64,000 nt of DNA. Origin: Sphingorhabdus lacus (lineage in GTDB: Bacteria; Pseudomonadota; Alphaproteobacteria; Sphingomonadales; Sphingomonadaceae). The translations under genes were made by a program, and so were the position numbers. The notes under the pieces were generated by a model that made no database searches, was not told the origin of the DNA, and saw only the letters and a program-made list of their open reading frames with translations. Location of the stretch: positions 3,082,001 to 3,146,000 of the forward strand of contig NZ_CP035733.1 in the NCBI RefSeq assembly GCF_009768975.1. The letters are read 5' to 3'. This document shows, in pieces, positions 13,976 through 34,428 of the stretch (positions within the stretch are counted from its first letter, which is position 1; every line of letters starts with the position of its first letter).

Positions 13976-14108
13976 AAAGGGGGTTCCGCGACGCTATTGT
14001 GACAGTTGCATTGCACTCGCAAATCAGGCTGGCTTATGCAACAGCATTAAGCAAGATTATGTTCCGTGCGGGTTGCACCGTTCCGCAAATAGGTTCTATG
14101 CACTTGTT

Positions 14109-14432
14109 ATGGCACGGCTTCCCATCGGCTCCACTTCTGTCATTTTTATCGCGCAACGCAGCGACGCGGATGCCGATGGATATGCGCAGGCCGCACATGC
14201 AATGGATGCGCTGGCGCAACAACAACCCGGCTATCTTGGCATGGAATCGGTGCGCGGGGCCGATGGCCTTGGCATTACGGTCAGTTACTGGGCCAGCGAC
14301 ACCGACGCAAAGGCATGGCGCGACCATCCGGATCATGCCGCGATCCGCGATGCCGGACGTGACCGCTGGTACATGCATTACAGCCTGCACGTCGCCGAAG
14401 TCGTGCGCAGCTATGACTGGGTAAAGCCATGA
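14109..14432 (+). CDS. Antibiotic biosynthesis monooxygenase (ABM) domain protein
   Basis: This protein of 107 residues has a single ABM dimeric alpha-beta barrel domain. VIFIAQRSDADADGYAQAAH forms strand 1 and helix 1, QQPGYLGMESVRGADGLGIT contains the family's characteristic GYLG(M/F)ES block, and YWASDTDAKAWRDHPDHAAI precedes the closing RWYMHYSLHVAEVVRSYDW. Such proteins are cofactor-free oxygenases or haem-handling relatives. It overlaps the MFS transporter start by ATGA, so the two are co-translated. The start is at MARLPIG; the longer frame upstream lacks homology. Confidence 0.83.
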   Translation: MARLPIGSTSVIFIAQRSDADADGYAQAAHAMDALAQQQPGYLGMESVRGADGLGITVSYWASDTDAKAWRDHPDHAAIRDAGRDRWYMHYSLHVAEVVRSYDWVKP

Positions 14433-15730: not shown

Positions 15731-15750
15731 CCCGACTTTCGCTGCAGCGC

Positions 15751-15778
15751 AAAAAAAAGGGCCGACCGAAGTCGACCC
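15751..15778 (-). terminator. UUCG-loop intrinsic terminator (minus strand)
   Basis: On the minus strand this is an 8-bp stem with one G-U pair, a TTCG tetraloop and eight consecutive Ts. It ends a minus-strand transcript that must start between about 15790 and 15975. Confidence 0.7.
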
Positions 15779-15855
15779 TGAAAAAGTCTTTAGGAGAGGA
15801 TGCCTATAAGGCACTTTCGATATGAGCCGACTCCATTTTTTGTGCAAGTGCGAAC
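15751..15855 (-). ncRNA. Candidate small RNA divergent from a LysR gene
   Basis: On the minus strand the sequence ends in a textbook intrinsic terminator: GGGTCGAC, a TTCG loop, GTCGGCCC, then eight Ts (15778 to 15751). No + strand gene can use it, because there the hairpin lacks a T-run. No convincing minus-strand protein gene leads into it. About 105 nt upstream is a possible promoter (TTGATA, 17 bp, AGTAAT) overlapping palindromic LysR-type boxes. The predicted transcript has an inner hairpin (TGCC/GGCA, 15801-15813) and a single-stranded UCCUCUCCUA, complementary to Shine-Dalgarno sequences. The layout resembles oxyR/oxyS. All of this is prediction from sequence. Confidence 0.4.
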
Positions 15856-15856
15856 A

Positions 15857-15884
15857 ATGCAATTACTGTTGCATATTCTGCAAC
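15857..15884. promoter_or_regulatory. Overlapping LysR-type binding boxes
   Basis: GTTGCATATTCTGCAAC (15868-15884) is a perfect 6-5-6 inverted repeat containing the LysR T-N11-A core TGCATATTCTGCA. It overlaps a second perfect repeat, ATGCAA-6-TTGCAT (15857-15874). They lie about 100 bp upstream of the LysR gene and at the predicted promoter of the divergent small RNA, so they are probably bound by that LysR protein. Confidence 0.55.
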
Positions 15885-15982
15885 TATCAAATAGTCGTTT
15901 CGCAATGAAAAGCGCGCCGTTGCGGCGGATGCGATGAAAGACCCGTATTTGTTGCACCGCGACAAATCCCTAGGAGTATGTG

Positions 15983-16858
15983 ATGCGTCGTTTACCTCCC
16001 TTGCGCTCACTCGAAGCTTTTTTGCGCGTAGCCAAGCTTGGCTCGGCCAAAGCGGCGGCGAGTGAACTTGCCCTGTCCCCCCCTGCGCTCAGCCGCCGGA
16101 TCAAGGGGCTGGAGGATTTTATCGGCAAACCGCTGTTCGACCGGCGCGCACAGGCGATGGTCATCAACGCCGATGGCGAGGCTTTGCTCGCCGCAGTCGA
16201 ACCCGCGATGGACGCGATGGCAGAAGCCGTCGAGGAACTGGCCGGTCGCGGCGGTGAATATCGCTTGCGGCTGGGCGTGCTGCCGCTGTTCGGAACGCAG
16301 CGCCTGATCCCGAAGCTGCCCGCGCTGCGCAAGGCGTTTCCGAAGCTGCACATCGATGTCGACACGTCGGGCCATGCCGAAAATCTGCTGGGTGATGTGG
16401 TGGATGCCGCGATTATCATCGCGGCCGAGGTGGACCCCAAACTCTACAGCGTCCGGCTCGACAGCAATGTCGTCTACGCCATCGCGTCGGAAGAATGGGC
16501 GAAAGAGCAGGATATCAAGACGCCGTCCGACCTCACCAAGCATACGGTCATGGTGCACAGCGACATGCCGATGATCTTCGACGCCTGGCGCGAGGCAATG
16601 GGCGAACCGCGCCTGAAACCGCTGGCCATCGACCATATCGACAGCGGCCCTCTGATGCTGGAGGCGGCGGCCAACGGCCTTGGCGTTGCCATCATGCACG
16701 GCAGCCACTTCTCCGACGCCCGCGACCCCCGCCTGACCCGGTTGTTCGATAAAGAGGTCGAAAGCCCCTACAGCTACTGGTTCGTCTGCCGCCCCCGCGC
16801 CCTGCGCCAGCGGGCGGTGAAGATTTTCCACGACTGGTTGTTGAAAAGCGGGGTGTGA
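15983..16858 (+). CDS. LysR family transcriptional regulator
   Basis: The 291-residue protein begins MRRLPPLRSLEAFLRVAKLG with the winged helix-turn-helix of LysR regulators (residues 3-62, including SKAAASELALSPPALSRRIKGLED-type recognition region). The effector-binding domain follows (residues about 90-290; RLRLGVLPLFGTQRLIPKLP, HIDVDTSGHAENLLGDVVDA). It resembles the GcvA/AmpR-like subgroup. I prefer ATG 15983 to the adjacent GTG 15980 for spacing from TAGGAG. Palindromic boxes upstream suggest autoregulation and control of the divergent transcript. The effector is unknown. Confidence 0.9.
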   Translation: MRRLPPLRSLEAFLRVAKLGSAKAAASELALSPPALSRRIKGLEDFIGKPLFDRRAQAMVINADGEALLAAVEPAMDAMAEAVEELAGRGGEYRLRLGVLPLFGTQRLIPKLPALRKAFPKLHIDVDTSGHAENLLGDVVDAAIIIAAEVDPKLYSVRLDSNVVYAIASEEWAKEQDIKTPSDLTKHTVMVHSDMPMIFDAWREAMGEPRLKPLAIDHIDSGPLMLEAAANGLGVAIMHGSHFSDARDPRLTRLFDKEVESPYSYWFVCRPRALRQRAVKIFHDWLLKSGV

Positions 16859-16889
16859 GGAACGGGGACACGCACCGCATCTGACCCAT

Positions 16890-16921
16890 AAAAAAGGGGC
16901 CGCTCCGGTTGGAACGACCCC
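16890..16921 (-). terminator. Intrinsic terminator of the lipoprotein gene
   Basis: Read on the minus strand, GGGGTCGTTCC, an AACC loop and GGAGCGGCCCC form an 11-bp stem with wobble pairs, followed by six Ts. It lies just beyond the stop of the lipoprotein gene at 16951. Confidence 0.75.
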
Positions 16922-16950
16922 GTGGTTGCGTGGATTTTTGCTAGAAGCGA

Positions 16951-17397
16951 TTAGCTGCCTTTGCAGGTCTGTTCGCCCTTGCCGGCGAGCTTGACCTTGA
17001 TTTCCTTGCCAGCGCCCGCGAGCGTGCTTTCGCCGTCTGCGGATGTCAGCGGGCCGGCGGGGGCTGCTTCGGCGGCGGGCTTGGCGGCGTCGGTTGCGGC
17101 GGCGTCAGCGGCGGGCGCTTCGGGAGCAGGTGCGGTGACGCGGACGGCGGTGGCGGCCTTGTCGCCTACGCGGATGTCGGCGGCTTCATTCGCGCCGAGG
17201 AAATCGACATAGAGGATCGTGTTGTCGGCGCAGCGATAGGTGCCAGAGGCAGTGATCGCGGGCGGCATTTCGATTTCTTCGACGGCCGCGGTGGCCTTGG
17301 TCGCGTCGGCTTCACCGGCGGCAGGGGTTTCGGTTTGGTTGCATGCCGCTAACGCCAGCATGAACAACGGGGCGAGGATCAGGAGAGGTGTTTTCAT
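16951..17397 (-). CDS. Lipoprotein, possibly MliC-like lysozyme inhibitor
   Basis: This protein of 148 residues starts MKTPLLILAPLFMLALAACN, a lipoprotein signal with lipobox LAAC (cysteine at residue 19), so it is membrane-anchored in the periplasm. After an Ala/Glu-rich linker comes SGTYRCADNTILYVDFLG, and the end reads LAGAGKEIKVKLAGKGEQTC. The Y-R-C start and the late cysteine in a K-G-E-x-T context resemble MliC-type inhibitors of C-type lysozyme, interrupted by an Ala/Pro/Asp-rich insert. That match is suggestive only. The long upstream in-frame extension is rejected in favour of the lipoprotein signal at ATG 17397. Confidence 0.72.
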   Translation of the reverse strand: MKTPLLILAPLFMLALAACNQTETPAAGEADATKATAAVEEIEMPPAITASGTYRCADNTILYVDFLGANEAADIRVGDKAATAVRVTAPAPEAPAADAAATDAAKPAAEAAPAGPLTSADGESTLAGAGKEIKVKLAGKGEQTCKGS

Positions 17398-17516
17398 AAG
17401 GCGGCCCGTTTGCCGCAGCCTTTCGCCATTGGAAAGCAAAAATGCGCGTCCGCCAAAGAATTTTGCGATTGCCCGAAAGGCTTGACCCGAACAGCCGCTA
17501 GCGCCATTGCAGGGGG

Positions 17517-17756
17517 ATGTCTTCCGAAGCACCCGAACTGAATTTCGAACAGGCGCTGCGCGCGCTTGAGGATATCGTCCACAAGCTGGAAAGCGGGGAA
17601 GCGCCGCTCGACGAATCGATTGCGCTCTATGAAAAGGGCAACCAGTTGCGCGCGCTGTGCCAGCAACGGCTGGATGCGGCAAAGGCGCGGATCGAGGCGA
17701 TCACGCTGGGACCCGACGGCACGCCCGCTGGCACCACGCCCTTCGACGCCGGCTGA
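17517..17756 (+). CDS. xseB: Exodeoxyribonuclease VII small subunit
   Basis: This 79-residue protein matches XseB in length and sequence: LNFEQALRALEDIVHKLESG, APLDESIALYEKGNQLRALC and LDAAKARIEAITL form the two-helix subunit that binds XseA. Together they degrade single-stranded DNA to oligonucleotides, acting in repair. ATG 17517 follows AGGGGG. The gene sits 6 bp upstream of ispA, an arrangement common in bacteria. xseA is not in the window. Confidence 0.94.
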   Translation: MSSEAPELNFEQALRALEDIVHKLESGEAPLDESIALYEKGNQLRALCQQRLDAAKARIEAITLGPDGTPAGTTPFDAG

Positions 17757-17762
17757 CCGGAT

Positions 17763-18644
17763 ATGTTGCACGACGCGCTGAACCAGATAGCTGCGGATGT
17801 AGACGCCGAATTTGACCGGCTGCTCGCGCTGCCCGGCGATGCGCGCGACCCGCTCTATGCCGCGATGCGCCATGCCGCGATTGGCGGGGGCAAAAGATTG
17901 CGGCCCTTGCTGGTCACCGCGACCGCTGCCCTGTTCCATGTCGACCGCGATGTCGCGCTGCGCGTTGGCACGGCGGTGGAGGCGATCCATGTCTATTCGC
18001 TGATCCATGACGACCTGCCATGCATGGACGATGACGATATGCGCCGGGGCAAGCCCACCGTGCACCGCGCTTTTGGGGAGGCGACCGCCGTGCTCGCGGG
18101 CGACTCGCTGCATGCGCTGGCCTTTGAAATACTGGCAAGCTCGCGCACCCATACCGACCCCTTCATCCGCAGCGAGCTGATCGCCACCCTCGCGCTGGCG
18201 AGCGGCCCGGATGGCATGGCGGGCGGGCAGATGATGGATCTGGAGGCGGAAAAGACGACCTTTGACCTGCCTACGGTGACACGTCTGCAGGCCCTGAAGA
18301 CCGGCGCGCTTATTGCTGCCAGCGTCGAAATGGGCGCGATCCTCGGCCATATTCCGCCCGAAGGCCGCGCGCATCTGAAAGGCTATGCCCGCGATATCGG
18401 CCTCGCTTTCCAGATTGCCGACGACATATTGGATGTAGAGGGCGATCCCGAACTCGCCGGCAAGGCGCTGCAAAAGGATGCCGAGGCGGGCAAGGGGACC
18501 TTTGTCTCGCTGATGGGCCTCGACCGCGCCAAGCAACAGGCGGGCATGCTGGTCGCGCAGGCGAACGAGCATCTGGCAAGCTATGGCAGCGAAGCCGACC
18601 TGCTGCGCGCCATTGCCAATTATATTACGGAGAGGGACCGTTAA
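17763..18644 (+). CDS. ispA: Farnesyl diphosphate synthase (polyprenyl synthetase)
   Basis: This 293-residue cytosolic enzyme condenses isopentenyl diphosphate with dimethylallyl/geranyl diphosphate to farnesyl diphosphate, for quinones, undecaprenol and carotenoids. The first aspartate-rich motif is LIHDDLPCMDDDDMRRGKPT (DDx4D form typical of bacterial FPP synthases) and the second is FQIADDILDVEGD. GGKRLRPLL binds the diphosphate. The position after xseB and before coaD, with the coaD start overlapping its stop, indicates one operon. Chain length is inferred from the motif and size. Confidence 0.93.
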   Translation: MLHDALNQIAADVDAEFDRLLALPGDARDPLYAAMRHAAIGGGKRLRPLLVTATAALFHVDRDVALRVGTAVEAIHVYSLIHDDLPCMDDDDMRRGKPTVHRAFGEATAVLAGDSLHALAFEILASSRTHTDPFIRSELIATLALASGPDGMAGGQMMDLEAEKTTFDLPTVTRLQALKTGALIAASVEMGAILGHIPPEGRAHLKGYARDIGLAFQIADDILDVEGDPELAGKALQKDAEAGKGTFVSLMGLDRAKQQAGMLVAQANEHLASYGSEADLLRAIANYITERDR

Positions 18645-24391: not shown

Positions 24392-24429
24392 GTTCGGTTT
24401 TCGTGCGGAGACCGTAAAGGCAAAGGGCA

Positions 24430-24466
24430 CAATTTCTCACTGCGCGCGTACCGTGGTGAGAAATTG
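24430..24466. other. 11-bp inverted repeat beside attL
   Basis: CAATTTCTCAC (24430-24440) and GTGAGAAATTG (24456-24466) form a perfect inverted repeat just after gyrB and 8 bp outside attL. It could be a gyrB transcript-end hairpin without a T-run, or an accessory site beside the attachment core. Confidence 0.5.
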
Positions 24467-24474
24467 GGGAAGAA

Positions 24475-24490
24475 ATGGTGGACAGGGCTG
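24475..24490 (+). other. attL (16-bp core)
   Basis: ATGGTGGACAGGGCTG is an exact copy of 33435-33450. It is the displaced 3' fragment of tRNA-Tyr (CCA end, acceptor strand and part of the T arm), as expected after integration into the tRNA 3' end. Confidence 0.85.
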
Positions 24491-24708
24491 CTCTCCCTTA
24501 AAATCAGTTTTTCAGATGCTTACAATGGCGAACCCTACAAAAACCCTTCACGGTTAACTGCGCCGATCAAAAGCAAAAGGCTAACCGCAATTGCCGAAGT
24601 TTTGGCAGATGATGCGGTGCGAAAGGCGCACCAAAACAGGGCAGTTGCCACAGAATTTCCGTTAATCGAACCAGAGTTCGAAAATTGTGTTCGATTGCGA
24701 GCGCACCG

Positions 24709-27243
24709 ATGACGGATATTGTCGCTGCAGCTCTTGTATACGCTCGATCGGGCAAAACGGTTTTTCCGTGCCATCGGGAAACAAAACGCCCGCTGATTAA
24801 GGGATGGCGGGAAAATGCCACTGCAGATCCAGCATCGATCGAGCAGCAATGGAAATCTTTCCCAGGTGCGATGATTGGCATTCCTACCGGAGTTCCCGCC
24901 GGCGCATTTGTTGTCGATATCGATGCCGGCATCGACAAAGATACCGGTGAAATTTTCGAAGCGGCTGAATTGGTCGCGCAGCTGGAATCAAAAATTGGGT
25001 GTCAGCTTCCCACTACCCTCACTACCGAAACGCCCCGCGGTGGGCTTCACATTTGGTTTTTGCTCCCACCAGGTGAAAAGATTGGCAATCGAGCTGGAAT
25101 TATCCCGCGCATCGATGTGAGAGGGACTGGTGGCTATGTGATTGCGCCGCCATCCGTCCGGAACGATGGCAAAAGCTACATATGCAAAAATCCAGATGCG
25201 GACATTGCGAGTGCACCTAAGGCGCTTATCGACCTGATTTTAAGAAGGGGAGCCTTTGGGAGCAAATCCTCTGGTTCGCCCTCTCAGGGCAGTGCGCGCA
25301 ACGATGCAAGCGATGCGCACCGGAAATATGCTTTATCGGCTCTGGATCGAGAGTGCGCAGCAATCAAAAATGCTGCCAGTGGCCAGCGAAATACAGCTTT
25401 GCACAATGCTGCAGCTAACATTGCTGAATTTGTTGCAGCTGGGGTTCTTGATGAGCATGCCGCCCTGGCCGCGATCCGAGGATCTGCAGCTGCTAATCCT
25501 GGGGGAGATACCTCCAACCAGATTGAAGCGACTATTCAATCCGGATGGGGAAAGGGGATAACGAACCCTCGCGATCTTTCGAGCGTAGCGCTCGATGCGC
25601 GCCCTCGTGGGCAGAATAGCCGGTCCTCTTCCCAACCATATCGTAAGCACCCAATGCAGGCCGCTCCCGAGGACATCGAGGCGCTCCATTTGCTATGCTG
25701 CCGCTTTCCCATGACTGATATGGGCAATGCAGAGCGGTTTGCGGCGCGTAACCGTCACAGGGTGCGCTGGGTCGATAAGAGCGAGCTTTGGTCGATATAT
25801 GACGGTCGGAGATGGACGATCGAGGGTGCCGAAGCTGTTGTTGAGCAGTGGGTTTACGAAACGGTTAGAGCGATCGCTGAGGAAGCCCGAGCAATGCGCG
25901 ATTCCGGTAGACGGGATCTTGGCGAACCAGGCGCGCTCGATGATCTGGTTGAAGAAAAGGACGATGAGGAGGTTTTGGTTTCCGATCTGCTCGCAAAATG
26001 GGCGGTTAAGTCCGAAGCGCACGGAAAATTCAGCCGGATAAAGGCATCGGCAAGGCCGCTGGGTCTCACAATTCAGCCCGAGGACTTCGACCGCGATCCA
26101 TTCCTAATCAATTGCGAAAATGGAACGCTGCAGCTGCTCGATGCGGCCGATGAAAATTCGCCTCGGGCAAGAGTTCATATGCGGCCGCATGACCCGAGCG
26201 ATCTGATTACCAGGCTAATGCCGGTCAAGTATGATCCGAAGGCGAAAGCGCCGATCTACGATGGCTTTCTGGACAAGGTGCAGCCGGATGAAACAATGCG
26301 CCGCTTTTTGCATCAGTGGGCCGGATACTGCCTCACAGGCGATGTCAGCGAGCAAAAGCTCTGCTTTTGGCATGGACGTGGCGCTAACGGTAAATCGACG
26401 CTGATAGATACCTGGAGCGTAATTCTCGGGGACTATGCGACGTCGCTGGGGATAGAGTCATTTCTTGACCAGGGCCGGAAAAAATCGGGGTCCGATCATA
26501 GCGCCGATCTGGCCAAGCTGGTCGGTGTAAGGCTGGTGAGAACGTCCGAACCTGAAAAGGGCGCTAAGCTCGCTGAGGCTCTGATTAAGCTGGTCACTGG
26601 CAATGAGCCGGTTGCAGTGCGTGAGCCATACGCACGGCGAGGCTTCGATCTAAATCCCGCATTCAAGCTTACAGTCGGGGGAAATCACAGGCCGAAAATC
26701 ACCGGTACGGATGATGGGATCTGGCGCCGCGTACTTCTCGTGCCCTGGACTGTTCAGATTGCAGATGCCGACAAAGATCGAAAGCTGCTCGGCAAGCTAC
26801 GAAACGAGGCATCGGGCATACTGAACCGGATGATCGAGGGCATGCTCGATTGGCGGCAATGTGGATTGATAGAACCAGAGTCGGTTATCGCAGCGACTGC
26901 GCAGTATCGTGACGATAGCGATCCTTTAGGGCGCTTCATAACGCTCTGCTTGAGAAAGGAGGCTGGATCCCGCGTTCAGTCATCTCACCTCTACAAACTG
27001 TATAAGGCGTGGGCCGAGGCTGCAGGTGAGACCGCTTGGTCTCAGATGGGTTTCTCTGCCGCTATGGCCGATCGCGGCTATCGCAAGAAGCAATCGAACA
27101 CCATTCACTGGCTCGATGTAGCGACGCTCAAAGACGTCCACGACTTCATCGACCAGGATGGCAACGTGCTCGACTTCCCCGATGGTTCGCCCTCCTCGCC
27201 CTCTTCCCCTCCCGTCTATCAGGAGGATGATTGGCCGTTATGA
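24709..27243 (+). CDS. Primase-polymerase / SF3 helicase (P4 alpha/D5 type)
   Basis: This protein of 844 residues replicates the element. The N-terminal 180 residues form a bifunctional primase-polymerase domain (VYARSGKTVFPCHRETKRPL, GIPTGVPAGAFVVDIDAG and TPRGGLHIWFLLPPGEK). The middle region carries the D5_N-like part (RDPFLINCEN-type phrase DRDPFLINCENGTLQLLD and MRRFLHQWAGYCLTGD). The C-terminal superfamily 3 helicase has Walker A GRGANGKST (about residue 555-563) and then VRTSEPEKGAKLAEALIKLV and FKLTVGGNHRPKI. This layout matches phage P4 alpha and other satellite replication proteins. I start at ATG 24709. Iteron-like repeats directly follow. Confidence 0.9.
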   Translation: MTDIVAAALVYARSGKTVFPCHRETKRPLIKGWRENATADPASIEQQWKSFPGAMIGIPTGVPAGAFVVDIDAGIDKDTGEIFEAAELVAQLESKIGCQLPTTLTTETPRGGLHIWFLLPPGEKIGNRAGIIPRIDVRGTGGYVIAPPSVRNDGKSYICKNPDADIASAPKALIDLILRRGAFGSKSSGSPSQGSARNDASDAHRKYALSALDRECAAIKNAASGQRNTALHNAAANIAEFVAAGVLDEHAALAAIRGSAAANPGGDTSNQIEATIQSGWGKGITNPRDLSSVALDARPRGQNSRSSSQPYRKHPMQAAPEDIEALHLLCCRFPMTDMGNAERFAARNRHRVRWVDKSELWSIYDGRRWTIEGAEAVVEQWVYETVRAIAEEARAMRDSGRRDLGEPGALDDLVEEKDDEEVLVSDLLAKWAVKSEAHGKFSRIKASARPLGLTIQPEDFDRDPFLINCENGTLQLLDAADENSPRARVHMRPHDPSDLITRLMPVKYDPKAKAPIYDGFLDKVQPDETMRRFLHQWAGYCLTGDVSEQKLCFWHGRGANGKSTLIDTWSVILGDYATSLGIESFLDQGRKKSGSDHSADLAKLVGVRLVRTSEPEKGAKLAEALIKLVTGNEPVAVREPYARRGFDLNPAFKLTVGGNHRPKITGTDDGIWRRVLLVPWTVQIADADKDRKLLGKLRNEASGILNRMIEGMLDWRQCGLIEPESVIAATAQYRDDSDPLGRFITLCLRKEAGSRVQSSHLYKLYKAWAEAAGETAWSQMGFSAAMADRGYRKKQSNTIHWLDVATLKDVHDFIDQDGNVLDFPDGSPSSPSSPPVYQEDDWPL

Positions 27244-27283
27244 CCTGGGATTGCTGGCCATATGGGAGGCCTGAATGGGAGGC

Positions 27284-27437
27284 TTTGGGACACCGAAATA
27301 TATTTATTCGGTCAGCTTTTCTGCGCCTTTGGGACACTTGGGATACTTCGCCGGTGTTCTTTACATCATGTGTGTGCGCGTGTGTGCGCGCACACATAAG
27401 AGATAAACTCACATATAAGTGTCCCAAGTGTCCCAAA
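27284..27437. other. Candidate replication origin: inverted iterons around a Z-DNA-prone tract
   Basis: TTTGGGACAC occurs at 27284-27293 and 27328-27337, with a related CTTGGGATAC at 27337-27346. The reverse form GTGTCCCAA occurs at 27419-27427 and 27428-27437. Between the two groups is a 32-bp alternating pyrimidine-purine tract (27367-27398) containing the palindrome TGTGTGCGCGCACACA. No gene is credible in 27244-27523. Iterons next to a primase-helicase gene are how phage P4 marks its origin, so this is a likely origin. Confidence 0.55.
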
Positions 27438-27523
27438 CCCTATCAAATCCTTGGGTTTAGTATCCCTTCAACCCTCCCAATAGTCTCCCAACAACCCTCC
27501 CATGTCGGAAAGGACGTAAAATT

Positions 27524-27772
27524 ATGCCGATATCCTCAATTTGCAGCCCTATTGAAGCTCAAGACTCGGCTGAGCTGGTCGCTTCGATCCTTGAAGATGC
27601 TGCAGTCCGCCTCCGCATGCTGCTCACTCCCGAGCAGGCTGCCAGTGCGTTTCTTGAAGCTGGGGTATTCGGTATGCTGTCAACTGCAGGGTATGACGCG
27701 CTGCTCTCCACTGTCGCGCAATCAACGAAATCGTATGTCGATTGCAGGCATCGAGCCAAAGCAGCAAACTAA
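27524..27772 (+). CDS. Hypothetical small protein of the element
   Basis: This 82-residue acidic, mostly helical protein (SAELVASILEDAAVRLRMLL, TPEQAASAFLEAGVFGMLST) has no recognised domain. AAGGACG precedes the ATG at good distance. It lies between the candidate origin and the Nu1-like gene, in the same direction as both, so it belongs to the replication/packaging side of the element. Its function cannot be read. Confidence 0.55.
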   Translation: MPISSICSPIEAQDSAELVASILEDAAVRLRMLLTPEQAASAFLEAGVFGMLSTAGYDALLSTVAQSTKSYVDCRHRAKAAN

Positions 27773-27901
27773 CCAGCCTTTCCGAGGGCCTTTGGGTCCT
27801 CCTGGGGCACAAAGTGTATACGGGAGCCGAAGGCGCTCGTCGTGCGGGTTCCCGATACTTTTCAAACACTTCTTGTTTTTGTTTCGTTTCTGGTGGTTGC
27901 C

Positions 27902-28192
27902 ATGATCGGCGGGCTGCAGCAGCTATCGCGACGCCCTGGCATGCCATGCCCGAAGGTAATTCGCCGGTTAATCAATCAAAACCCTGACTTCCCCGTGATC
28001 GAAACCGGAAAGCGGGGACGCGCATATCAGTTCGATCTGGATGAGTCGGTTGCATTCATCGAACGATTGCAAGCCCGAGGCGGAATGAGTGCAGCTCGAT
28101 GGGATGCTGCGATGTCTTCCCTGGGATTGGATATCGATCCCACCGCGCCACAGATCGACCAGCGCCATCCCGTGACCAGGGAACCTCCCTAG
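27902..28192 (+). CDS. Nu1/AlpA-like DNA-binding protein (possible small terminase)
   Basis: This protein of 96 residues begins MIGGLQQLSRRPGMPCPKVI and continues RRLINQNPDFPVIETGKRGR, AYQFDLDESVAFIERLQARG. The pattern helix-turn-helix, then E-x-G-K-x-G-R-A-Y/W-x-F-D leading into a helix, is that of winged-helix small terminases of the Nu1 type and related excisionase folds. It lies 81 bp before the capsid gene, where a packaging-specificity protein is expected. No large terminase follows. I prefer ATG 27902 to the frame's first codon at 27842, as the extra part is hydrophobic and unlike the family. A regulatory role is possible. Confidence 0.55.
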   Translation: MIGGLQQLSRRPGMPCPKVIRRLINQNPDFPVIETGKRGRAYQFDLDESVAFIERLQARGGMSAARWDAAMSSLGLDIDPTAPQIDQRHPVTREPP

Positions 28193-28273
28193 CCATACCT
28201 AGCGCCCTGGGGGGTGATAATCGGTTCGCAGAAAAGCGCGCCTATCGTTTTGCAAGAATGAAAGATTAGAACA

Positions 28274-30097
28274 ATGCCAAATTCAAATGAAAATGGGCGT
28301 CCATTGATCGGGGGTTCAGATCTAAACCGAAGATTTGTCGCGGTGGCTGTTGAAGTTGCTGCAGATGGTATGCTACAAGCCACCCTATCGAGTGAGACGC
28401 CGGTGGTGCGTCCATTCGGTAATGAGATATTGGATCACTCGCCGGAAGCGGTGAACCTTGAACGCGCTGCAATGGGATTGCCGCTTCTCATCGATCACGA
28501 TCTAGAGCGTCAGCTCGGGCGGGTCGAAAATATCCGGCTTAAAGGCCGGAAACTTGTCGGAGACATCCGCCTCTCGGAAAGAGCGGATATGGCGGGCATC
28601 GTGGCCGATGTTCGCGAAGGCATCCGGCCTGACATTTCCATAGGATACATAATCGATGAAGCGGTGGAAGTGCCTGGGAGCACTGATTGGCGCATCACGA
28701 AATGGACTCTTTACGAAGTCTCATCAGTTGCGCTGCCTGCAGATCACACGGTCGGCATCGGTCGCAGCTTTTCTCAATCATCAAGAAAGGTTCTCACAAT
28801 GCCACAGAGCAATCAACAAAATCAAAACTCTGATGCAGTAGCGTCTGAACGTCAGCGCATCAGCAACATCACTTCGATGGCTTCCCGCCTCAACATCCCA
28901 CAGGATCTAGCCACCCGCGCAATCGACGGCGGTTGGCCGGTCGAAAGGTTCATCAACGAATTTCAGAACAACGCGCCCGGGTCGCAAGCTTTCCGGACTG
29001 CGGAAAGTGCGCCGAATGATAACCAGTTCGATCGATTGCGCTCTGGCTTCATGCTTACCAGGGCAATTGCAGATACCATCGAGCACGGTAGACTCTCCGG
29101 ACTTGAAGCCGAAGTTAGTCAAGAATTGATCCGCCGCAACGGTGGGGTAGCGCCAAAAGGTTTTATGGTTCCCACCAGCGCCTTGATGACCCGTGTGCAG
29201 CTGGTCGGCACTCCAACCAGCGCGGGCAATCTGGTCGGCACCGACTATCTTGCAGATCAGTTCATCGCGCCACTGCGGAGAAAAACTGCAGTGATGATGG
29301 CAGGCGCTACCGTCCTAACCGATCTGGTCGGCAATGCAGTGCTTCCCAGGCAAGATAATGCGACGGCGGGCCAGTGGATCGCGGAAGACGGCGAAGCGAC
29401 TGAAACCAACCTAACCACCAGTCAGGTTAGCCTCTCGCCCAAAACTGTGACCGGCAATATTTCATGGTCGCGGCAAGCTGCCCTGCAGGCCCTGCCCGCC
29501 ATGGAGGAAATTGTCCGAAATGACCTTTCGGCACAGCTGGGGATTGCTCTCGATCGAGGCGCTCTGCATGGCCTTGGGGCATCGAACGAGCCTCGGGGTG
29601 TATTCAACACTTCGGGCATCGGTTCAGTTGCCCTGGGTGCCAACGGTGCGGCTCCTACCTACGGCTCGATTTTGGATTTGGAATCGGCGATCGCTGCCTC
29701 TGATGCGGACAGTGGCAACATGTCTTACATCACCAATACCAAAGTTCGACGGGCCCTTAAATCGACGCAACGGTTCTCCGGAACGGACACGCCGGTATGG
29801 ATGCCAGGACTTGCTGGCAGTGATCCAGGCTCAGGTGTGATGAACGGGTATCCGGCATATGCTACCAACAATGTCCGATCGGATTTTACCAAAGGATCCG
29901 GCACTGCCTTGTCAGGTATCGTGTTCGGGAATTGGTCGGAATTGGTAATCGGACTTTGGGGCGGGCTTGACCTGGTGGTTGATCCTTACACCAACTCGCA
30001 AAAGGGCCGTGTCCGGATTAGCGCATTCCTATCCGCCGACATTAGCGTCAAACATGCGGCGAGCTTCGCGGCAATCGTCGACGCAATAGCGCCGTAA
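28274..30097 (+). CDS. HK97-type prohead protease fused to major capsid protein
   Basis: This 607-residue protein joins two phage head proteins. Residues about 20-165 are a prohead maturation protease (S78/HK97 type): histidine 75 in LPLLIDHDLERQLGRVE and the nucleophile serine in WTLYEVSSVALPADH (150 or 151). Residues about 176-607 are the HK97-fold major capsid protein: an N-terminal delta/scaffold region rich in Gln/Asn, then FMVPTSALMT, GTDYLADQFIAPLRRKTAVM, SPKTVTGNISWSRQAALQA and GLDLVVDPYTNSQKGRVRIS. Fusion of the two is known in some phages and elements. An internal ATG at 28799 with its own ribosome binding site could supply free capsid protein. A strong terminator follows. Confidence 0.9.
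   Translation: MPNSNENGRPLIGGSDLNRRFVAVAVEVAADGMLQATLSSETPVVRPFGNEILDHSPEAVNLERAAMGLPLLIDHDLERQLGRVENIRLKGRKLVGDIRLSERADMAGIVADVREGIRPDISIGYIIDEAVEVPGSTDWRITKWTLYEVSSVALPADHTVGIGRSFSQSSRKVLTMPQSNQQNQNSDAVASERQRISNITSMASRLNIPQDLATRAIDGGWPVERFINEFQNNAPGSQAFRTAESAPNDNQFDRLRSGFMLTRAIADTIEHGRLSGLEAEVSQELIRRNGGVAPKGFMVPTSALMTRVQLVGTPTSAGNLVGTDYLADQFIAPLRRKTAVMMAGATVLTDLVGNAVLPRQDNATAGQWIAEDGEATETNLTTSQVSLSPKTVTGNISWSRQAALQALPAMEEIVRNDLSAQLGIALDRGALHGLGASNEPRGVFNTSGIGSVALGANGAAPTYGSILDLESAIAASDADSGNMSYITNTKVRRALKSTQRFSGTDTPVWMPGLAGSDPGSGVMNGYPAYATNNVRSDFTKGSGTALSGIVFGNWSELVIGLWGGLDLVVDPYTNSQKGRVRISAFLSADISVKHAASFAAIVDAIAP
28799..30097 (+). other. Probable internal translation start for capsid alone
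   Basis: Within the fusion gene, GAAAGG lies 8 bp before an in-frame ATG at 28799 (MPQSNQQNQNSD), exactly at the boundary between the protease and capsid parts. Starting here gives a 432-residue product, the usual length of an HK97-type capsid protein with its delta domain. This resembles the nested gene arrangement of lambda C/Nu3. It is a prediction. Confidence 0.45.
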
Positions 30098-30177
30098 TTG
30101 AGATTCGGCGGCGGTTCGTCCCCTTCAGCCGCCGATGAGATCGAGCAAGCCCTGATCAGCTTGGCTCGATCATTTCG

Positions 30178-30214
30178 AACCCGTCCGCGCCTAGCCATCG
30201 CGGGCGGGTTTTTT
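30178..30214 (+). terminator. Strong intrinsic terminator after the capsid gene
   Basis: AACCCGTCCGCG (30178-30189) pairs with CGCGGGCGGGTT (30199-30210) as a 12-bp stem with one wobble, followed by Ts. It closes the + strand transcript of the primase-to-capsid half of the element and faces the minus-strand repressor gene. Confidence 0.85.
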
Positions 30215-30234
30215 AGACCAATATTTGGAGAATT

Positions 30235-30423
30235 TCAGCGGTCAGCCAGAAAGGTCCGAATTATAGAACGGATGACTGCAGGCCGCGTAACTTCGCCCTC
30301 TTGCTGGGTCGCAATGTACGCATCGAGCGCTTCAAGCTCAGCAGGCGGAAAGCGGACATTGATAGGCGTCGCTCCAACTGGCGGGCGACCTCTTCCTTTT
30401 TTGTTAGCGCTAGATATTGACAT
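30235..30423 (-). CDS. Ribbon-helix-helix (CopG/Arc-type) repressor
   Basis: This 62-residue protein begins MSISSANKKGRGRPPVGATP and continues INVRFPPAELEALDAYIATQ, then EVTRPAVIRSIIRTFLADR. A short basic tail followed by a beta strand (INVRF) and two helices is the ribbon-helix-helix DNA-binding fold. It is the only minus-strand gene of the element and is divergent from the small-gene operon at 30508. The 84-bp gap holds two inverted repeats, probably its operators. It likely represses the element's early genes and itself. ATG 30423 is preferred to the longer frame from 30477. Confidence 0.72.
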   Translation of the reverse strand: MSISSANKKGRGRPPVGATPINVRFPPAELEALDAYIATQQEGEVTRPAVIRSIIRTFLADR

Positions 30424-30430
30424 AACGTTT

Positions 30431-30482
30431 TTCTGATGCCAGAAAATGCAAGCCGATGCAAGGCTGCAACCCTGCATCGGCT
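30431..30482. promoter_or_regulatory. Inverted repeats between divergent repressor and small-gene operon
   Basis: TTCTGATGCCAGAA (30431-30444) and AGCCGATGCA-12-TGCATCGGCT (30451-30460, 30473-30482) are perfect inverted repeats in the gap between the ribbon-helix-helix gene and the + strand operon. They are the likely operators of that repressor. Confidence 0.5.
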
Positions 30483-30507
30483 CTAACTTTCAACATGGAG
30501 AAGTGCC

Positions 30508-30804
30508 ATGCCTCAAGCTGAACACACGCATAAACAATCGAGTGCTGAATTTGCACCGACAATTTTGGAAAATCGCCGATCGGGCTCCCCTGAATGGTCC
30601 GCTGCTGAATGGGTATCAGAGTTTGAAAGCCTAGGAGGTTTCATCAATTCGAACGGCCTTGGATGGCTCGCTTCGGAGGGGAACCCCCAAGGGTGGAAGA
30701 CCAGGGCAACTGAAATGATGCGCGAGTTAGACGATGCGCTCCGGTACGCGCAGGTTATGTCGATCTGGCAGAAGCGCAGCGCGCCCTGCACGGGAGGCCA
30801 GTGA
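30508..30804 (+). CDS. Hypothetical protein of the element
   Basis: This 98-residue soluble protein begins MPQAEHTHKQSSAEFAPTIL and contains WSAAEWVSEFESLGGFINSN and RATEMMRELDDALRYAQVMS. It is tryptophan-rich and helical. I recognise no domain. GGAGAAG precedes the ATG. It is the first gene of the + strand operon beyond the repressor, and the next gene starts 2 bp after its stop. Confidence 0.55.
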   Translation: MPQAEHTHKQSSAEFAPTILENRRSGSPEWSAAEWVSEFESLGGFINSNGLGWLASEGNPQGWKTRATEMMRELDDALRYAQVMSIWQKRSAPCTGGQ

Positions 30805-30805
30805 T

Positions 30806-31087
30806 ATGACTAGCGTCTCAATAAAGATTGTCAGTCTCGATGCCCAGCGCCGCGCAAAGCGCCGCGAGAGGATCCGCGCCCCATTTAAAAACAACGGGTC
30901 CGCGAAAACCCTTCATGAAGCTCGGCAGATGCTCATTGGCAGTGTTGAACCAAAGCCCCGCATGGCAGATTTTGCTAATCCTCTGGCCTTTGGTTTGGCC
31001 CGCGAAATCTGGTTCGAGCGGCGATTAGCGAGATATCACCAGGTGATTTTTGGTGACAATTTAGTTGAAAGGTCCGGCGATGATTGA
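30806..31087 (+). CDS. Hypothetical protein (small-gene paralogue 1)
   Basis: This protein of 93 residues has a basic N-terminal helix (DAQRRAKRRERIRAPF) followed by KTLHEARQMLIGSVEPKPRM. That latter block recurs in the next gene as KTLQEARERILSELPPKPIF, so the two adjacent genes are paralogues. GGGAGG precedes ATG 30806, which follows the upstream stop by 1 bp. Its end overlaps the next gene by 8 bp. Function unknown; the basic N-terminus suggests nucleic-acid contact. Confidence 0.55.
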   Translation: MTSVSIKIVSLDAQRRAKRRERIRAPFKNNGSAKTLHEARQMLIGSVEPKPRMADFANPLAFGLAREIWFERRLARYHQVIFGDNLVERSGDD

Positions 31088-31337
31088 ACGTTCCGATAAT
31101 GTTTTGAGGTTCGAGCCGGTTCGCAAATCAAGCGCATCCGAGGGCGAAGCAAAATCGACATGTAAGACTTTGCAGGAAGCTCGGGAGCGGATCCTATCGG
31201 AATTGCCACCGAAGCCCATATTCACAGGAATGAGCGAATTTCAGGCTGCAGAAGTAGCGATGAATTGGCTGCTCGATGCTAACTTCATTTATAAATCTGC
31301 GGTGTTCGGACTGCCTCCCGAAGTCTCCGAAATTTGA
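31080..31337 (+). CDS. Hypothetical protein (small-gene paralogue 2)
   Basis: This protein of 85 residues contains KTLQEARERILSELPPKPIF, matching the preceding gene, and ends with a helix (EFQAAEVAMNWLLDANFIYK). Its ATG (31080) overlaps the end of the preceding gene by 8 bp, after AAAGG, indicating coupled translation. No known domain is seen. It is the last gene before the operator-bearing promoter at 31364-31409. Confidence 0.55.
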   Translation: MIERSDNVLRFEPVRKSSASEGEAKSTCKTLQEARERILSELPPKPIFTGMSEFQAAEVAMNWLLDANFIYKSAVFGLPPEVSEI

Positions 31338-31363
31338 ACCGTAATCGACAGATAATATTTCCA

Positions 31364-31409
31364 TTGACATAATGTGTTCGCATGAGGCATTAGCTTGTGC
31401 GAACACATT
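31364..31409 (+). promoter_or_regulatory. Promoter with perfect 12-bp inverted-repeat operator
   Basis: TTGACA (31364-31369) is a consensus -35 box. Downstream, AATGTGTTCGCA (31371-31382) and TGCGAACACATT (31398-31409) are perfect inverted repeats with a 15-bp spacer covering the expected -10 region. The GTG start of the HTH regulator follows 15 bp later, so this is probably an autoregulated promoter for regulator and integrase genes. Confidence 0.65.
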
Positions 31410-31423
31410 AGGAGCCTCAGAAC

Positions 31424-31939
31424 GTGAGCAGCTTGAATTTCGATGAACCCCGCTTTCCGTTAAGTGCGACTGCACGAGCAACGGGATGGAACCTGCTCAC
31501 TCTTCGCGACTACATGGCTCGCGGGAAATTTGAATGGCACGAAACAGATTCGCAGGCTGCTGCACCTGGTGGACGAAGCCTTTTATCGTTGCGAAGCGTA
31601 GTTCGTCTGGGCATCACTTTTGAGCTGTGGTCGATCGGTGTGTCTCCAAAAGATGCCTATTGGGCTGCTCTCAATTTTGGCGATGTTGGTCACTCCAAAA
31701 ATCGCATTGGCGCCCTTCCCGATCGGGTTCCTGGTCATTTGTTTCCAGATCCGTACATCACATACCTGGTGTTCAAACGGGCATTTCTAGCGGACGTTAT
31801 CGCAGTGAAAAGCGGCGAGCAGATCGATCTGGAATCGGTCATGTACGACCTGTTCAATGATGCTCCTGGGGCCGTCGCTATCGTCAACGTGAACAGGGTC
31901 TGGCACCGGATTATGACTGCCTTGGACGTAGAGGCATAG
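31424..31939 (+). CDS. HTH regulator of the element (MerR/excisionase-like fold)
   Basis: This 171-residue protein starts at GTG 31424 after AGGAG. Its N-terminal part, FPLSATARATGWNLLTLRDY then MARGKFEWHETD and GGRSLLSLRSVVRLGITFEL, has the order helix-turn-helix, wing, and following helix of MerR-like or AlpA-like DNA-binding domains. The C-terminal half has no known match. It lies directly behind the inverted-repeat promoter at 31364-31409 and leads an operon of small genes and the integrase. It may act as repressor/antirepressor or excision factor. Confidence 0.55.
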   Translation: MSSLNFDEPRFPLSATARATGWNLLTLRDYMARGKFEWHETDSQAAAPGGRSLLSLRSVVRLGITFELWSIGVSPKDAYWAALNFGDVGHSKNRIGALPDRVPGHLFPDPYITYLVFKRAFLADVIAVKSGEQIDLESVMYDLFNDAPGAVAIVNVNRVWHRIMTALDVEA

Positions 31940-31942
31940 GCC

Positions 31943-32182
31943 ATGCAGATGCAGGCGCTCACATCTATGTCGAACGGTTCGCGGCTCATCCGTCGTGAAA
32001 CACTGTTAGAGACGCTTGCCGCGATAAAATCGACAGGATCCTCGGTAGACCAGATCACGCTGCTGCCTGGAGGGTCTGTGCAAATTTCGATCGTGAAACC
32101 CGATCACAAGATTGTCGTTCCCTCGCCAGCTACCCAACTGGCTTGGCGGGACGTCCAAGTGTTGGAGAAGCGCAATGCCTAG
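31943..32182 (+). CDS. Small protein upstream of integrase (paralogue a)
   Basis: This 79-residue protein has the core RLIRRETLLETLAAIKSTGS, VDQITLLPGGSVQISIV. The next gene shows the same order (R-x-x-x-x-L-x-x-x-L-x-A-x-K-x-x-G, then I-x-x-x-P-G-G-x-I-x-I/V), so they are related. Proteins of this kind are common directly upstream of tyrosine integrases in sphingomonads, but I know no function for them. It follows the regulator by 3 bp and overlaps the next gene by 8 bp. Confidence 0.55.
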   Translation: MQMQALTSMSNGSRLIRRETLLETLAAIKSTGSSVDQITLLPGGSVQISIVKPDHKIVVPSPATQLAWRDVQVLEKRNA

Positions 32183-32357
32183 ACCAGCCAGATTTAAGCA
32201 GAACGATTTGGTGCGGGCATTGAAGGCCGTCAAAGCCGCCGGTGAAAATCCGAAACGAATCGACGTGGATCCAGCGGGAAACATTCGAGTGTTTTTGGGT
32301 GCGTCTCAGCAAAATGAAACGACATTTGATAACCCTTGGGATGAGGTTCTCACATAA
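32175..32357 (+). CDS. Small protein upstream of integrase (paralogue b)
   Basis: This protein of 60 residues reads MPRPARFKQNDLVRALKAVK, AAGENPKRIDVDPAGNIRVF and ends with an acidic tail. A helix followed by a beta hairpin is expected. It overlaps the gene before it by 8 bp and shares a base with the integrase start (TAATG), so it is translated together with the integrase and may assist it. This frame is short and easily missed. Confidence 0.58.
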   Translation: MPRPARFKQNDLVRALKAVKAAGENPKRIDVDPAGNIRVFLGASQQNETTFDNPWDEVLT

Positions 32358-33412
32358 TGGGAAAGCGTCGTTACCTTCCAAAATATGTATCTTCCTATCT
32401 GGATCGCCATGGGAAGCAGCGCTTCCGTTATCGCCGTAAAGGCCAGTCAACCTATAGCTTCCAAAACGTTCCAGGCACTGAGCAATTCCTAGCTGAATAT
32501 CGCGCATGCCTTGATTCGGTCGCGCCCGTGATTGGTGCGAACCGGTTTAAGCCTGGCAGCATCGATGACCTGGTTTCTCGTTTCTATTGCTCCCCAGCTT
32601 GGCAGGGCAATATGCGCCCATCATCGCAAGCAACCTATCGGGGTATAATCGAAAGGTTCCGGAAAGCTCATGGCGATAAGCCGGTCAGCCAAATTAAGAC
32701 CCATCATCTCGATGCAATCCTCGGTAAAATGGCCGATCGACCAGCTGCTGCGAACAATCTCCGCAAAGTCCTGAAACGCTTATTCCGGTATGCTGTGAAG
32801 ATCGGGATGCGGGACGATAATCCTGCCGAATTGACCGATGGCTTCAAGTCCGATGGGGAAGGTTTCCACACTTGGACGGAAGACGAAATCACTGCATTTG
32901 AGGCCCGCCATCCGATCGGCACAAAGGCGCGCCTCGCATTTGCTCTTTTGCTCCACACTGGCCAGCGCCGGTCCGATGTTGTCAAAATGGGCCGTCAGCA
33001 CATCAAATCAGGCCGCATAATGGTGCGCCAAACGAAAACCGGAGCTGCCGTATCGATCCCGATCAACATGGAGCTTCAAGCTGCTCTAAACGCGATGCCA
33101 GGTGACAATCTGACACTGCTTTTGACGGAATTTGGAAAGCCTTTCACCTCCAACGGTTTTGGCAATTGGTTCCGCGATCGATGCGACGAAGCTGGGTTGC
33201 CGCAATGCAGCGCCCATGGCCTCCGAAAAGCAATGTCGCGTCGATTGGCAGAAAGTGGCGCAACAAATCAGCAGGGTCGCGCCATCACCGGCCACAAGAC
33301 CGATCGGGAGTTCAATCGATACGCTGCGATGGCAGATCAAGAGCGACTTTCGAACGATGCAATGGCTAACCTTAATAAAGCGGTTAGCCAAAAGCCGGAG
33401 AAATCGCAATGA
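32357..33412 (+). CDS. Tyrosine recombinase (integrase) of the element
   Basis: This 351-residue site-specific recombinase has an N-terminal arm-binding part (MGKRRYLPKYVSSYLDRHGK, a short Arg-rich beta domain) and a core-binding domain (SSQATYRGIIERFRKAHGDK, VLKRLFRYAVKIGMRDDNPA). The catalytic domain has arginine about 204 in LLHTGQRRSDVVKMG, HGLRK (about 287-291), ITGHKTD (histidine about 312) and the nucleophile tyrosine about 321 in EFNRYAAM. It lies 22 bp from attR, as usual for integrases using tRNA genes. It is predicted to integrate and excise the element at tRNA-Tyr. Confidence 0.93.
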   Translation: MGKRRYLPKYVSSYLDRHGKQRFRYRRKGQSTYSFQNVPGTEQFLAEYRACLDSVAPVIGANRFKPGSIDDLVSRFYCSPAWQGNMRPSSQATYRGIIERFRKAHGDKPVSQIKTHHLDAILGKMADRPAAANNLRKVLKRLFRYAVKIGMRDDNPAELTDGFKSDGEGFHTWTEDEITAFEARHPIGTKARLAFALLLHTGQRRSDVVKMGRQHIKSGRIMVRQTKTGAAVSIPINMELQAALNAMPGDNLTLLLTEFGKPFTSNGFGNWFRDRCDEAGLPQCSAHGLRKAMSRRLAESGATNQQGRAITGHKTDREFNRYAAMADQERLSNDAMANLNKAVSQKPEKSQ

Positions 33413-33434
33413 AACCAGACACTTGCAAAGGGAG

Positions 33435-33450
33435 ATGGTGGACAGGGCTG
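33435..33450 (+). other. attR (16-bp core in the tRNA-Tyr 3' end)
   Basis: ATGGTGGACAGGGCTG is identical to attL. Fifteen of its bases are the 3' end of the tRNA gene (CCA, acceptor strand and the start of the T arm), so the tRNA stays complete after integration. Confidence 0.85.
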
Positions 33451-33521
33451 GATTCGAACCAGCGTACGGAAAACCGGGCAGATTTACAGTCTGCTGCCTT
33501 TAACCACTCGGCCACCTGTCC
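33436..33521 (-). tRNA. tRNA-Tyr (GTA)
   Basis: On the minus strand the 86-nt sequence starts GGACAGGTGGCCGAGTGG and pairs its GGACAGG acceptor arm with CCTGTCC followed by A and an encoded CCA. The anticodon loop CTGTAAA gives anticodon GTA (tyrosine). A long variable arm follows, as in bacterial tRNA-Tyr, and the T arm reads GCTGGTTCGAATCCAGC. Its 3' end is the attachment site of the integrated element. Confidence 0.96.
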
Positions 33522-33782
33522 ACGTCTTTTGCGGGTAATGCGCTTACGCACATAGGCCGGTCCCACAAAGGAAGCAGCGCAATGGCGAAACGGCCCTTGT
33601 CTGTCAATGCTTCAAATGGGAAAGCGCAGCCAATTGCGGAACTTTTATCGATCGAAGCGCAAAAACGCGCGCACGGCTTAGCGGAAGCTATCACCTCGGC
33701 CCAATAATGGCGCGCCGTATCGACAGGCGGATTGGCGGGTTTTGGACTCGGGCGTAAGCTTGGCGAATCGATGGAGGGGTCC

Positions 33783-34172: not shown

Positions 34173-34428
34173 GTTTTTTCGCTAGAAGGAAGAAGGCCAA
34201 AAGGAAGAAGGCGTTTGCGTAGCCCTTGCGGCGGTGCGCTTCAATCGAAAGCATCGTCACCCTGAACTCGTTTCAGGGTCTTATTCCTCAGACGTCGAAA
34301 CTAAGACCCTGAAACGAGTTCAGGGTGACGGATTTTATGGTTCAACATGCGTTTGAGTAAAAGCGCCAAGCTATAATTAGAGCCCCCACGCCTTCTTCCT
34401 TATTGCCTTCTTCCTTCTAGCGAAAAAA
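34173..34428. repeat. Composite repeat: purine-rich inverted ends enclosing two REPs
   Basis: The left end is GTTTTTTCGCTAGAAGGAAG (34173 onward) and the right end is its inverse, CTTCCTTCTAGCGAAAAAAC (ending near 34430). Inside, two REP units (34256-34280 and 34305-34329) are exact inverted copies of each other over 25 bp, able to form a long hairpin. This is the best-preserved copy of the composite family. Confidence 0.75.

Follow-up and report, generated by a model that had tools for sequence, protein, structure and literature searches.

Gram-negative phage-inducible chromosomal islands (PICIs) such as EcCICFT073, PmCI172 and the HE-PICIs are small integrase-bearing phage satellites with a primase and late genes, and a major capsid protein (MCP) gene is present in 21 of the 29 reference islands (PMC6092414, PMC10111431). 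Here we describe an island of 8,976 bp in the chromosome of Sphingorhabdus lacus (positions 24475-33450 of the window, that is, of the whole 64-kb stretch analysed; the genome is a single 3.46-Mb contig), which resembles these PICIs in size, integrase, primase, late genes and MCP, and in which neither the large terminase subunit (TerL) nor a portal was found. The island is best explained as a cos-type, PICI-like, helper-dependent phage satellite with its own shell protein, a reading to which we give a probability of roughly three in four. It appears to work like a capsid-bearing Gram-negative PICI, yet it is not assignable to either PICIs or capsid-forming PICIs (cf-PICIs) because its gene order or gene set differs from theirs.

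Gram-negative PICIs are ordered int-AlpA-dynamic zone-primase-late genes, whereas the island runs from primase through late genes, a ribbon-helix-helix (RHH) gene and small genes to an integrase at the far end, with the attachment site (att) between integrase and primase; it also differs in having a Prim-Pol/D5 primase of its own clade and a protease-capsid fusion, and in lying outside the Gammaproteobacteria, to which all Gram-negative PICIs of the 2018 survey belong (PMC6092414). Packaging from cos by a helper, known for EcCICFT073, would be a further likeness, the island cos being a sequence candidate (PMC6092414, PMC10111431). Like cf-PICIs the island has its own MCP and head protease and no tail gene was found in it, but cf-PICIs encode portal, connectors, both terminase subunits and an HNH protein (PMC10690885), none of which was found here. 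SaPIbov5 is a cos-type satellite with a capsid homologue, Ccm, and the helper portal is present in its procapsids; it is Gram-positive and no protease is identified on it, whereas the island encodes a full fusion protein (PMC8569155). The Vibrio PISP TG93 likewise has a named capsid protein, head protease and small terminase, with a MerR-like regulator, but is a plasmid without integrase and has a capsid protein of the E type (PMC13230959). The same fusion family occurs in VP882-like phages and in a prophage of genome G017, the latter also having a primase relative, a Nu1-like small terminase subunit (TerS) and the packaging motif A described below; in these the portal and tail genes are present, and VP882 has an annotated TerL. 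Sid, Psu and Delta proteins define P4-like satellites, and no PHROG or Pfam match to them was obtained among the scanned island proteins. No paper on phage-inducible satellites in sphingomonads was found, a weak absence with subscription journals mostly outside the literature searched.

The island has a G+C content of 0.539, compared with 0.607 for the remainder of the window, and its features are listed in Table 1. An earlier, sequence-only reading had proposed its coordinates, 16-bp repeats, tRNA-Tyr, integrase, primase, Nu1-like gene, fusion and repressor-like gene, all of which were borne out by repeat search, ARAGORN, Pfam/PHROG scans and BLAST; that reading had also regarded the gene set as matching no satellite class that could be named exactly, which was too strong in view of the MCP genes of the reference PICIs. 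Twelve island proteins were scanned against Pfam and ten of these also against PHROGs, and no portal, TerL, connector, HNH or tail family was obtained above cut-off, in agreement with the earlier claim that portal, TerL and tail genes are absent; only chance-level matches were seen (Sf6 small terminase for the Nu1-like protein, E 0.17; a tailspike domain for the 171-aa protein, E 0.24). In the whole genome there was no match to PF05136 (portal) or to PF05876 or PF03354 (TerL), other terminase families not having been searched, and the one PF04860 portal (L079 8860-10822) lies beside a protease-like fragment with no capsid gene seen, in what we take to be a degraded gene transfer agent cluster. 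Within the families searched, the island has no means of packaging its own DNA, and the genome showed no helper.

Relatives of the primase were collected from 19 of the 45 matching genomes (own genome included) of a family-level search of 397 genomes, from 20 stretches following searches at the level of order (25 of 396 genomes matched) and class (16 of 385), and from five genome-contig loci and viral-contig loci. Among the 116 loci fetched (window excluded), 91 extended at least 7 kb downstream, and of these 79 had TerL and portal, two had a capsid without them (L086, L090) and 10 had none of the three; the detection panel misses some terminase types, and L112, scored in the last group, shows a terminase-like gene by eye. 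A capsid without TerL or portal was also seen in three of the 25 shorter loci, L055 (genome G027), L085 and L087. Phages account for most of the primase family. In a tree made by a quick method from 115 of the 117 rows (two of less than 480 aa left out; a row is labelled phage where TerL was seen), the window, G027, L086, L087 and Sphingomonas sp. Leaf10 form a clade with a Shimodaira-Hasegawa-like approximate likelihood ratio (SH-aLRT) support of 100. TerL or portal was detected in 0 of these 5 members and a capsid in four (L087 being only 6.6 kb long), whereas 28 of the 30 rows of the sister clade are labelled phage and 2 are unlabelled, which argues that the island is not a lone deleted prophage. 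L085 and L090 fall elsewhere in the tree. The L085 contig ends behind the capsid gene and may represent either a fragment or one more satellite; L090, judged by eye a damaged prophage, retains connector and tape-measure-like genes, and L096 and L107 also look damaged by eye.

The gene order of the island recurs in G027, a genome of another genus, where a 10.8-kb element (contig positions 154,414-165,252) bounded by a 16-bp att repeat occupies tRNA-Glu: in both, att is followed by primase, a small gene, a helix-turn-helix (HTH) gene, a protease-MCP gene, RHH gene on the minus strand, small genes, integrase and tRNA, the integrases being 45% and the RHH proteins 43-49% identical. L086, a 10.5-kb viral contig with a 63-nt repeat (95%) at tRNA-Cys, has primase, Nu1-like gene, S78 protease, capsid, two reverse genes, RHH, HTH-like genes and integrase, and L087 (6.6 kb) has primase, Nu1-like gene, protease, capsid and a small open reading frame (ORF) before the contig ends. 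The Leaf10 element (L335 reverse complement 545-17795; ~17.2 kb, 55-bp exact repeat, tRNA-Cys) carries primase, Nu1-like gene, S78 and S49 proteases and an integrase 59% identical to that of L086. A HTH_17 gene precedes the integrase in L086 (weak, E 0.006) and has a homologue in Leaf10 and none in the window. PADLOC, run on ten proteins (four from the window and two each from L086, G027 and Leaf10), gave one match, to PDC-S32 in Leaf10, a candidate piece of defence cargo; the Leaf10 cargo presumably also includes an acyltransferase-like gene. A YfbU-domain gene lies immediately behind the RHH gene of the G027 element (L055 17898-18401).

Three capsid types are found in this clade: a PF05065/PHROG 617 fusion in the window, a PF25209/PHROG 4523 fusion in G027, and in L086 a PF05065/PHROG 10 MCP with a separate S78 protease, to which the L087 MCP is 43% identical. 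One backbone with exchanged capsids is as expected of a living family. The profile of the window fusion matches solved capsid proteins (best 8gta_A, E 6e-65), and His-75 of its protease part, presumably catalytic, is invariant across eight aligned fusions. No relative was found by single-protein scans of the genome-contig and viral-contig sets with the window capsid.

The Nu1-like protein gave no significant match to a hidden Markov model, and BLAST ties it to the TerS of TerL-bearing loci (best E 1e-15). Its predicted fold (mean predicted local distance difference test score, pLDDT, of 72) had as its four best PDB matches three viral DNA-packaging-motor entries and the DNA-binding domain of lambda gpNu1, at E values of 0.04-0.56 and none below 0.001, and a family profile gave no convincing match among PDB sequences (best E 0.025). 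The DNA-binding domain is kept and the central helical part of phage TerS is absent, for which reason we propose that the protein may mark cos or regulate rather than serve as a full small terminase.

A candidate for that cos site was obtained by way of a viral contig, G1001 (IMGVR_UViG_3300032374_000113; 46.5 kb), which contains a phage encoding TerS, TerL, portal, protease, capsid and a tape-measure-like protein of 1,850 aa. The terL gene of this phage is split by a ~10.6-kb element (L219 6605-17486; L304) at the part matching HK97 TerL residues 17-18, comparable to some Gram-negative PICIs, HE-PICIs of Enterobacteriaceae among them, that lie within helper late genes including terL (PMC6092414, PMC10111431). 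The embedded element has a HTH gene, a capsid, a 1,535-aa homologue of the 1,850-aa protein (55% across 846 aa) and an integrase; a primase of the island family, a protease, TerL and portal were looked for there and not found. In a self-comparison of G1001 the best match by identity between element and host phage was an 88-bp stretch (87.5%; others 70-75%), which is non-coding in the element and in the phage lies between TerS and a gene that we take to be of HNH type. In such phages cos usually sits between an HNH-type gene and TerS. Motif B was written from this 88-bp stretch and motif A from a stretch conserved in phages with a Nu1-like TerS, and 86 loci with primase and TerL were scanned with both. 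All 11 matches of motif A and 36 of the 40 matches of motif B fell on the + strand of the primase-TerL gap, which makes up 187,850 of 3,275,498 strand-bases (5.7%). The motifs follow terminase type, motif A being present in 10 of 24 loci with GpA-type TerL versus 1 of 62 with HK97/Rc-type TerL, and motif B in 36 of 62 HK97/Rc-type versus 0 of 24 GpA-type loci.

The 64-kb window contains exactly one motif A, at 27794, 108 bp before the ATG of the Nu1-like gene and followed, as in phages, by a T-rich tract and then the Nu1-like start; shuffling gave 0 matches in 400 shuffles of the element and 2 in 50 of the whole window. We therefore propose 27788-27901 as a candidate cos site of phage type, new here. 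L086 and L087 carry motif B upstream of their Nu1-like genes. Since fused capsids like that of the window accompany GpA-type TerL in 12 of 14 loci, motif A and the fused capsid both point to the same, GpA-type, kind of helper.

On these grounds the following cycle can be proposed. Entry of a helper phage would lift repression of the island, which would excise and replicate by its own primase from an origin immediately 3′ of the primase gene; a helper terminase of GpA type would cut the island cos and package the island, and the island protease-capsid protein would form, or co-assemble into, a possibly smaller shell that takes the portal and tail of the helper, the resulting particle delivering the island to a new host for integration into tRNA-Tyr. 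The expected helper would be a tailed temperate phage of the kind of the G017 prophage or L120-L122, sharing the capsid and cos types of the island and having a GpA-type terminase.

Several points weigh against a satellite of this kind. Its cycle and its cos are proposed from sequence, PICI transfer is reported not to need the capsid genes of these islands (PMC10111431), AlphaFold gave an unusable model of the fusion (pLDDT 33), and a search of the S. lacus genome with four families found no helper prophage. Both motifs were composed after inspection of the sequences, motif A with the window in view, and the 86 loci scanned include near copies. The motif of the own type is absent in 14 of the 24 GpA-type and 26 of the 62 HK97/Rc-type loci, motif B of L086 has 12 matches in 200 shuffles, G027 matches only a relaxed motif A (6 matches in 200 shuffles), and no motif match was obtained in Leaf10. 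Nor was an MCP found in Leaf10, which belongs to the same primase clade, so that the capsid is not universal. Lastly, an element in genome G148 has an integrase close to that of the window (309 bits), yet TerL and portal are present there.

The alternative that survives best, a serious one although we would not give it even odds, keeps the satellite and changes the role of the capsid protein, which would not build a shell but co-assemble with that of the helper (for example at pentamers), shrinking or sabotaging the head. The precedent is Ccm of SaPIbov5, which is homologous to capsid proteins, has a shorter delta domain and redirects head size (PMC8569155), although window, G027, L086 and L087 all bring their own protease. 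In the window protein the interval between protease and capsid core is 173 residues, compared with 183, 214, 222, 225 and 227 in five phage proteins of the same type, and the MCPs of the G1001 embedded element and L086 (390 and 406 aa, 74% identical to each other) lack a portion of the N-terminal region seen in the MCP of the G1001 phage (437 aa), to which that of the element is 58% identical. The G027 interval, at 243, is not short, and N-terminal length gave no separation over 67 HK97-type matches, so that a short N-terminal region was not upheld as a general mark of satellite capsids; the window fusion is moreover only 33-42% identical to its aligned phage relatives, distant for co-assembly with those phages. 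Co-assembly of the Ccm kind accounts for the data as well as the own, perhaps smaller, capsid favoured by the sequence-only reading.

It is unlikely that the island is a reduced remnant, left when the terL-portal block, with any tail genes, was deleted from a prophage like that of G017 or from a cf-PICI-like satellite such as that of G148, the rest hitch-hiking. Its primase-TerS-(gap)-protease-MCP layout is that of the full G017 prophage minus terL and portal, the Nu1-like protein is without the central part of phage TerS, and truncated head blocks are seen in the real deletion cases L090, L096 and L107. The G148 element (same bacterial family; L343 3820-13962), at tRNA-Gln, carries TerL, a 171-aa-type gene, capsid, protease, portal, a 65-aa gene and integrase, with no tail gene seen, and looks like a cf-PICI-type satellite; in G139, TerL and a 171-aa-type gene lie near a contig end. 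The G148 integrase match implies that the integration arm of the window serves capsid-bearing elements whether or not they encode a motor, so that the two kinds cannot be told apart by the arm; the match slightly raised the odds of a remnant. Set against deletion are the five clade members, at three tRNA genes (L087 site not seen), which are without the same block and have three capsid types. Among the panel loci the RHH gene was matched only in G027 and L086, the integrases of TerL-bearing loci (L089, L093, L111, L122, L203) are located upstream of the primase in the opposite orientation and not behind the capsid, the damaged prophages L090, L096 and L107 retained tail-type genes by eye, and no broken frame was seen in the ORF list of the window element. 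The gene order recurring in G027, the primase clade without TerL or portal and the candidate cos together favour a compact satellite over a deleted prophage, as had been claimed from the sequence. The expected recurrence of a short gene order without tail genes was seen in G027, but at tRNA-Glu and in another genus; relatives at tRNA-Tyr that always carry portal, TerL and tail genes, which would have spoken for deletion, did not appear, and no relative was found at tRNA-Tyr at all. Least probable is a domesticated, no longer mobile capsid-bearing element with an anti-phage or gene-transfer function, to which the location at the sole intact tRNA-Tyr found and the ability of a capsid homologue to act against phages (PMC8569155) would be suited, since integrase, both att copies and candidate cos look intact and relatives occupy other tRNAs.

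The satellite reading may be extended to an old lineage with a constant replication and control backbone and a swapped capsid and cos cassette matching the helper, in which capsid-bearing members build a complete shell of their own from capsid and protease and borrow portal, motor and tail; this extension is tentative, and if true it would amount to a division of labour between PICIs and cf-PICIs. Capsid-bearing Gram-negative PICIs are already known, and the same bacterial family harbours an element that has TerL, portal and a related integrase and in which no tail gene was seen. With this island, capsid-bearing satellites gain a lineage outside the Gammaproteobacteria that has its own primase clade and one member in Sphingomonas sp. 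Leaf10. The island also suggests that satellite capsid and packaging site swap together, tracking helper terminase type, in which case one could predict from sequence which helpers a satellite can use. As one bacterial family holds both kinds, how much of the head a satellite must bring (capsid alone versus capsid with portal and motor) is testable there.

Table 1 Features of the S. lacus island (window coordinates)
Feature	Position	Strand	Basis
attL, 16-bp copy of tRNA-Tyr 3′ end	24475..24490		Repeat search
Prim-Pol/D5 primase-helicase	24709..27243	+	Pfam Prim-Pol and D5_N; PHROG 1156, E 2e-152
Candidate replication origin, non-coding, 3′ of primase	27244..27523		Repeats; function proposed from position
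82-aa protein, no family	27524..27772	+	Pfam
Candidate cos and T-rich tract reaching Nu1-like ATG	27788..27901	+	Motif A match from 27794
Nu1-like protein (TerS N-terminal winged HTH), 96 aa, ATG 27902	27902..28192	+	BLAST, predicted fold
Prohead protease (S78)-MCP fusion, 607 aa	28274..30097	+	Peptidase_S78 and Phage_capsid; PHROG 617, E 7e-113
RHH repressor-like protein	30235..30477	-	PHROG 4738, E 3e-4
98-aa ORF, no family	30508..30804	+	ORF list, Pfam
117-aa ORF, no family, overlaps 98-aa ORF	30734..31087	+	ORF list, Pfam
90-aa ORF, no family	31065..31337	+	ORF list, Pfam
171-aa protein	31424..31939	+	Homology to Leaf10, G148 and G139 proteins
79-aa ORF, no family	31943..32182	+	ORF list, Pfam
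81-aa protein, precedes integrase	32112..32357	+	Homology
Tyrosine integrase	32357..33412	+	PF00589, E 1.5e-19
attR, inside tRNA-Tyr	33435..33450		Repeat search
tRNA-Tyr (gta)	33436..33521	-	ARAGORN

The att direct repeat is exact over 16 bp, and in its extended form (24472-24490/33432-33450) 18 of 19 bases are identical. ARAGORN called a single tRNA in the window, the minus-strand tRNA-Tyr, the 3′ end of which is covered by the right att copy; a 725-base search of the S. lacus genome gave no further intact tRNA-Tyr, and this appears to be the sole intact copy in the genome. In G1015, a genome from the same genus, gyrB lies next to rlpA, with no island and no tRNA there (15 kb fetched), and the tRNA-Tyr genes of G1015 and G1020 are located elsewhere. 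The corresponding place in S. lacus holds only a 77% remnant not called by ARAGORN. The decayed remnant and the absence of the island at gyrB-rlpA in G1015 make the island site look derived, and it seems that tRNA-Tyr, together with the stretch upstream of it, travelled with the island to the place between gyrB and rlpA (window 24392-33689; L341 ~6330-6510; L336, L337, L340).

The likely start of the primase is an ATG (ORF opening at TTG 24685; the scans ran from 24706, one codon earlier). In the candidate origin, inverted repeats (27328-27348/27417-27437) flank an alternating GT/GC stretch, followed by a 22-nt direct repeat within 27458-27502; PICI origins are located 3′ of the replication gene (PMC6092414). 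By eye, the gap 3′ of the primase has a common layout in the window, L055 (G027), L086, L087 and L335 (Leaf10), in which short repeats (GGGACACTT in the window, GCAAGGGTT in the other four) flank a stretch of alternating purines and pyrimidines, and is a candidate origin. Shared descent of the small capsid-adjacent proteins (82 aa here, others in relatives) was considered and dropped at 11-19% identity, and an alternative GTG start of the Nu1-like gene at 27842 would overlap the candidate cos. Homologues of the RHH protein are present in G027 and L086. The 171-aa protein shows 34% identity over 109 aa to a 209-aa protein at the equivalent position in the Leaf10 element and is also homologous to proteins near the TerL/capsid genes of G148 and G139, the former thus sharing both this gene and a related integrase with the island. 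The 81-aa protein is 37% identical over 59 aa to the product of a 73-aa gene preceding the G027 integrase and has relatives in four viral-contig loci (L089, L093, L105, L108), some of them TerL-bearing, a point in favour of a remnant.

A second viral contig, G1002 (IMGVR_UViG_2791355254_000002; L220/L305/L306), has two capsids, one near an integrase and protease and the other in a phage with TerL and portal. Outside the island, 3′ of rlpA, two nested inverted repeats (41 nt, 95%; 29 nt, 100%) lie at window positions 34174-34428.

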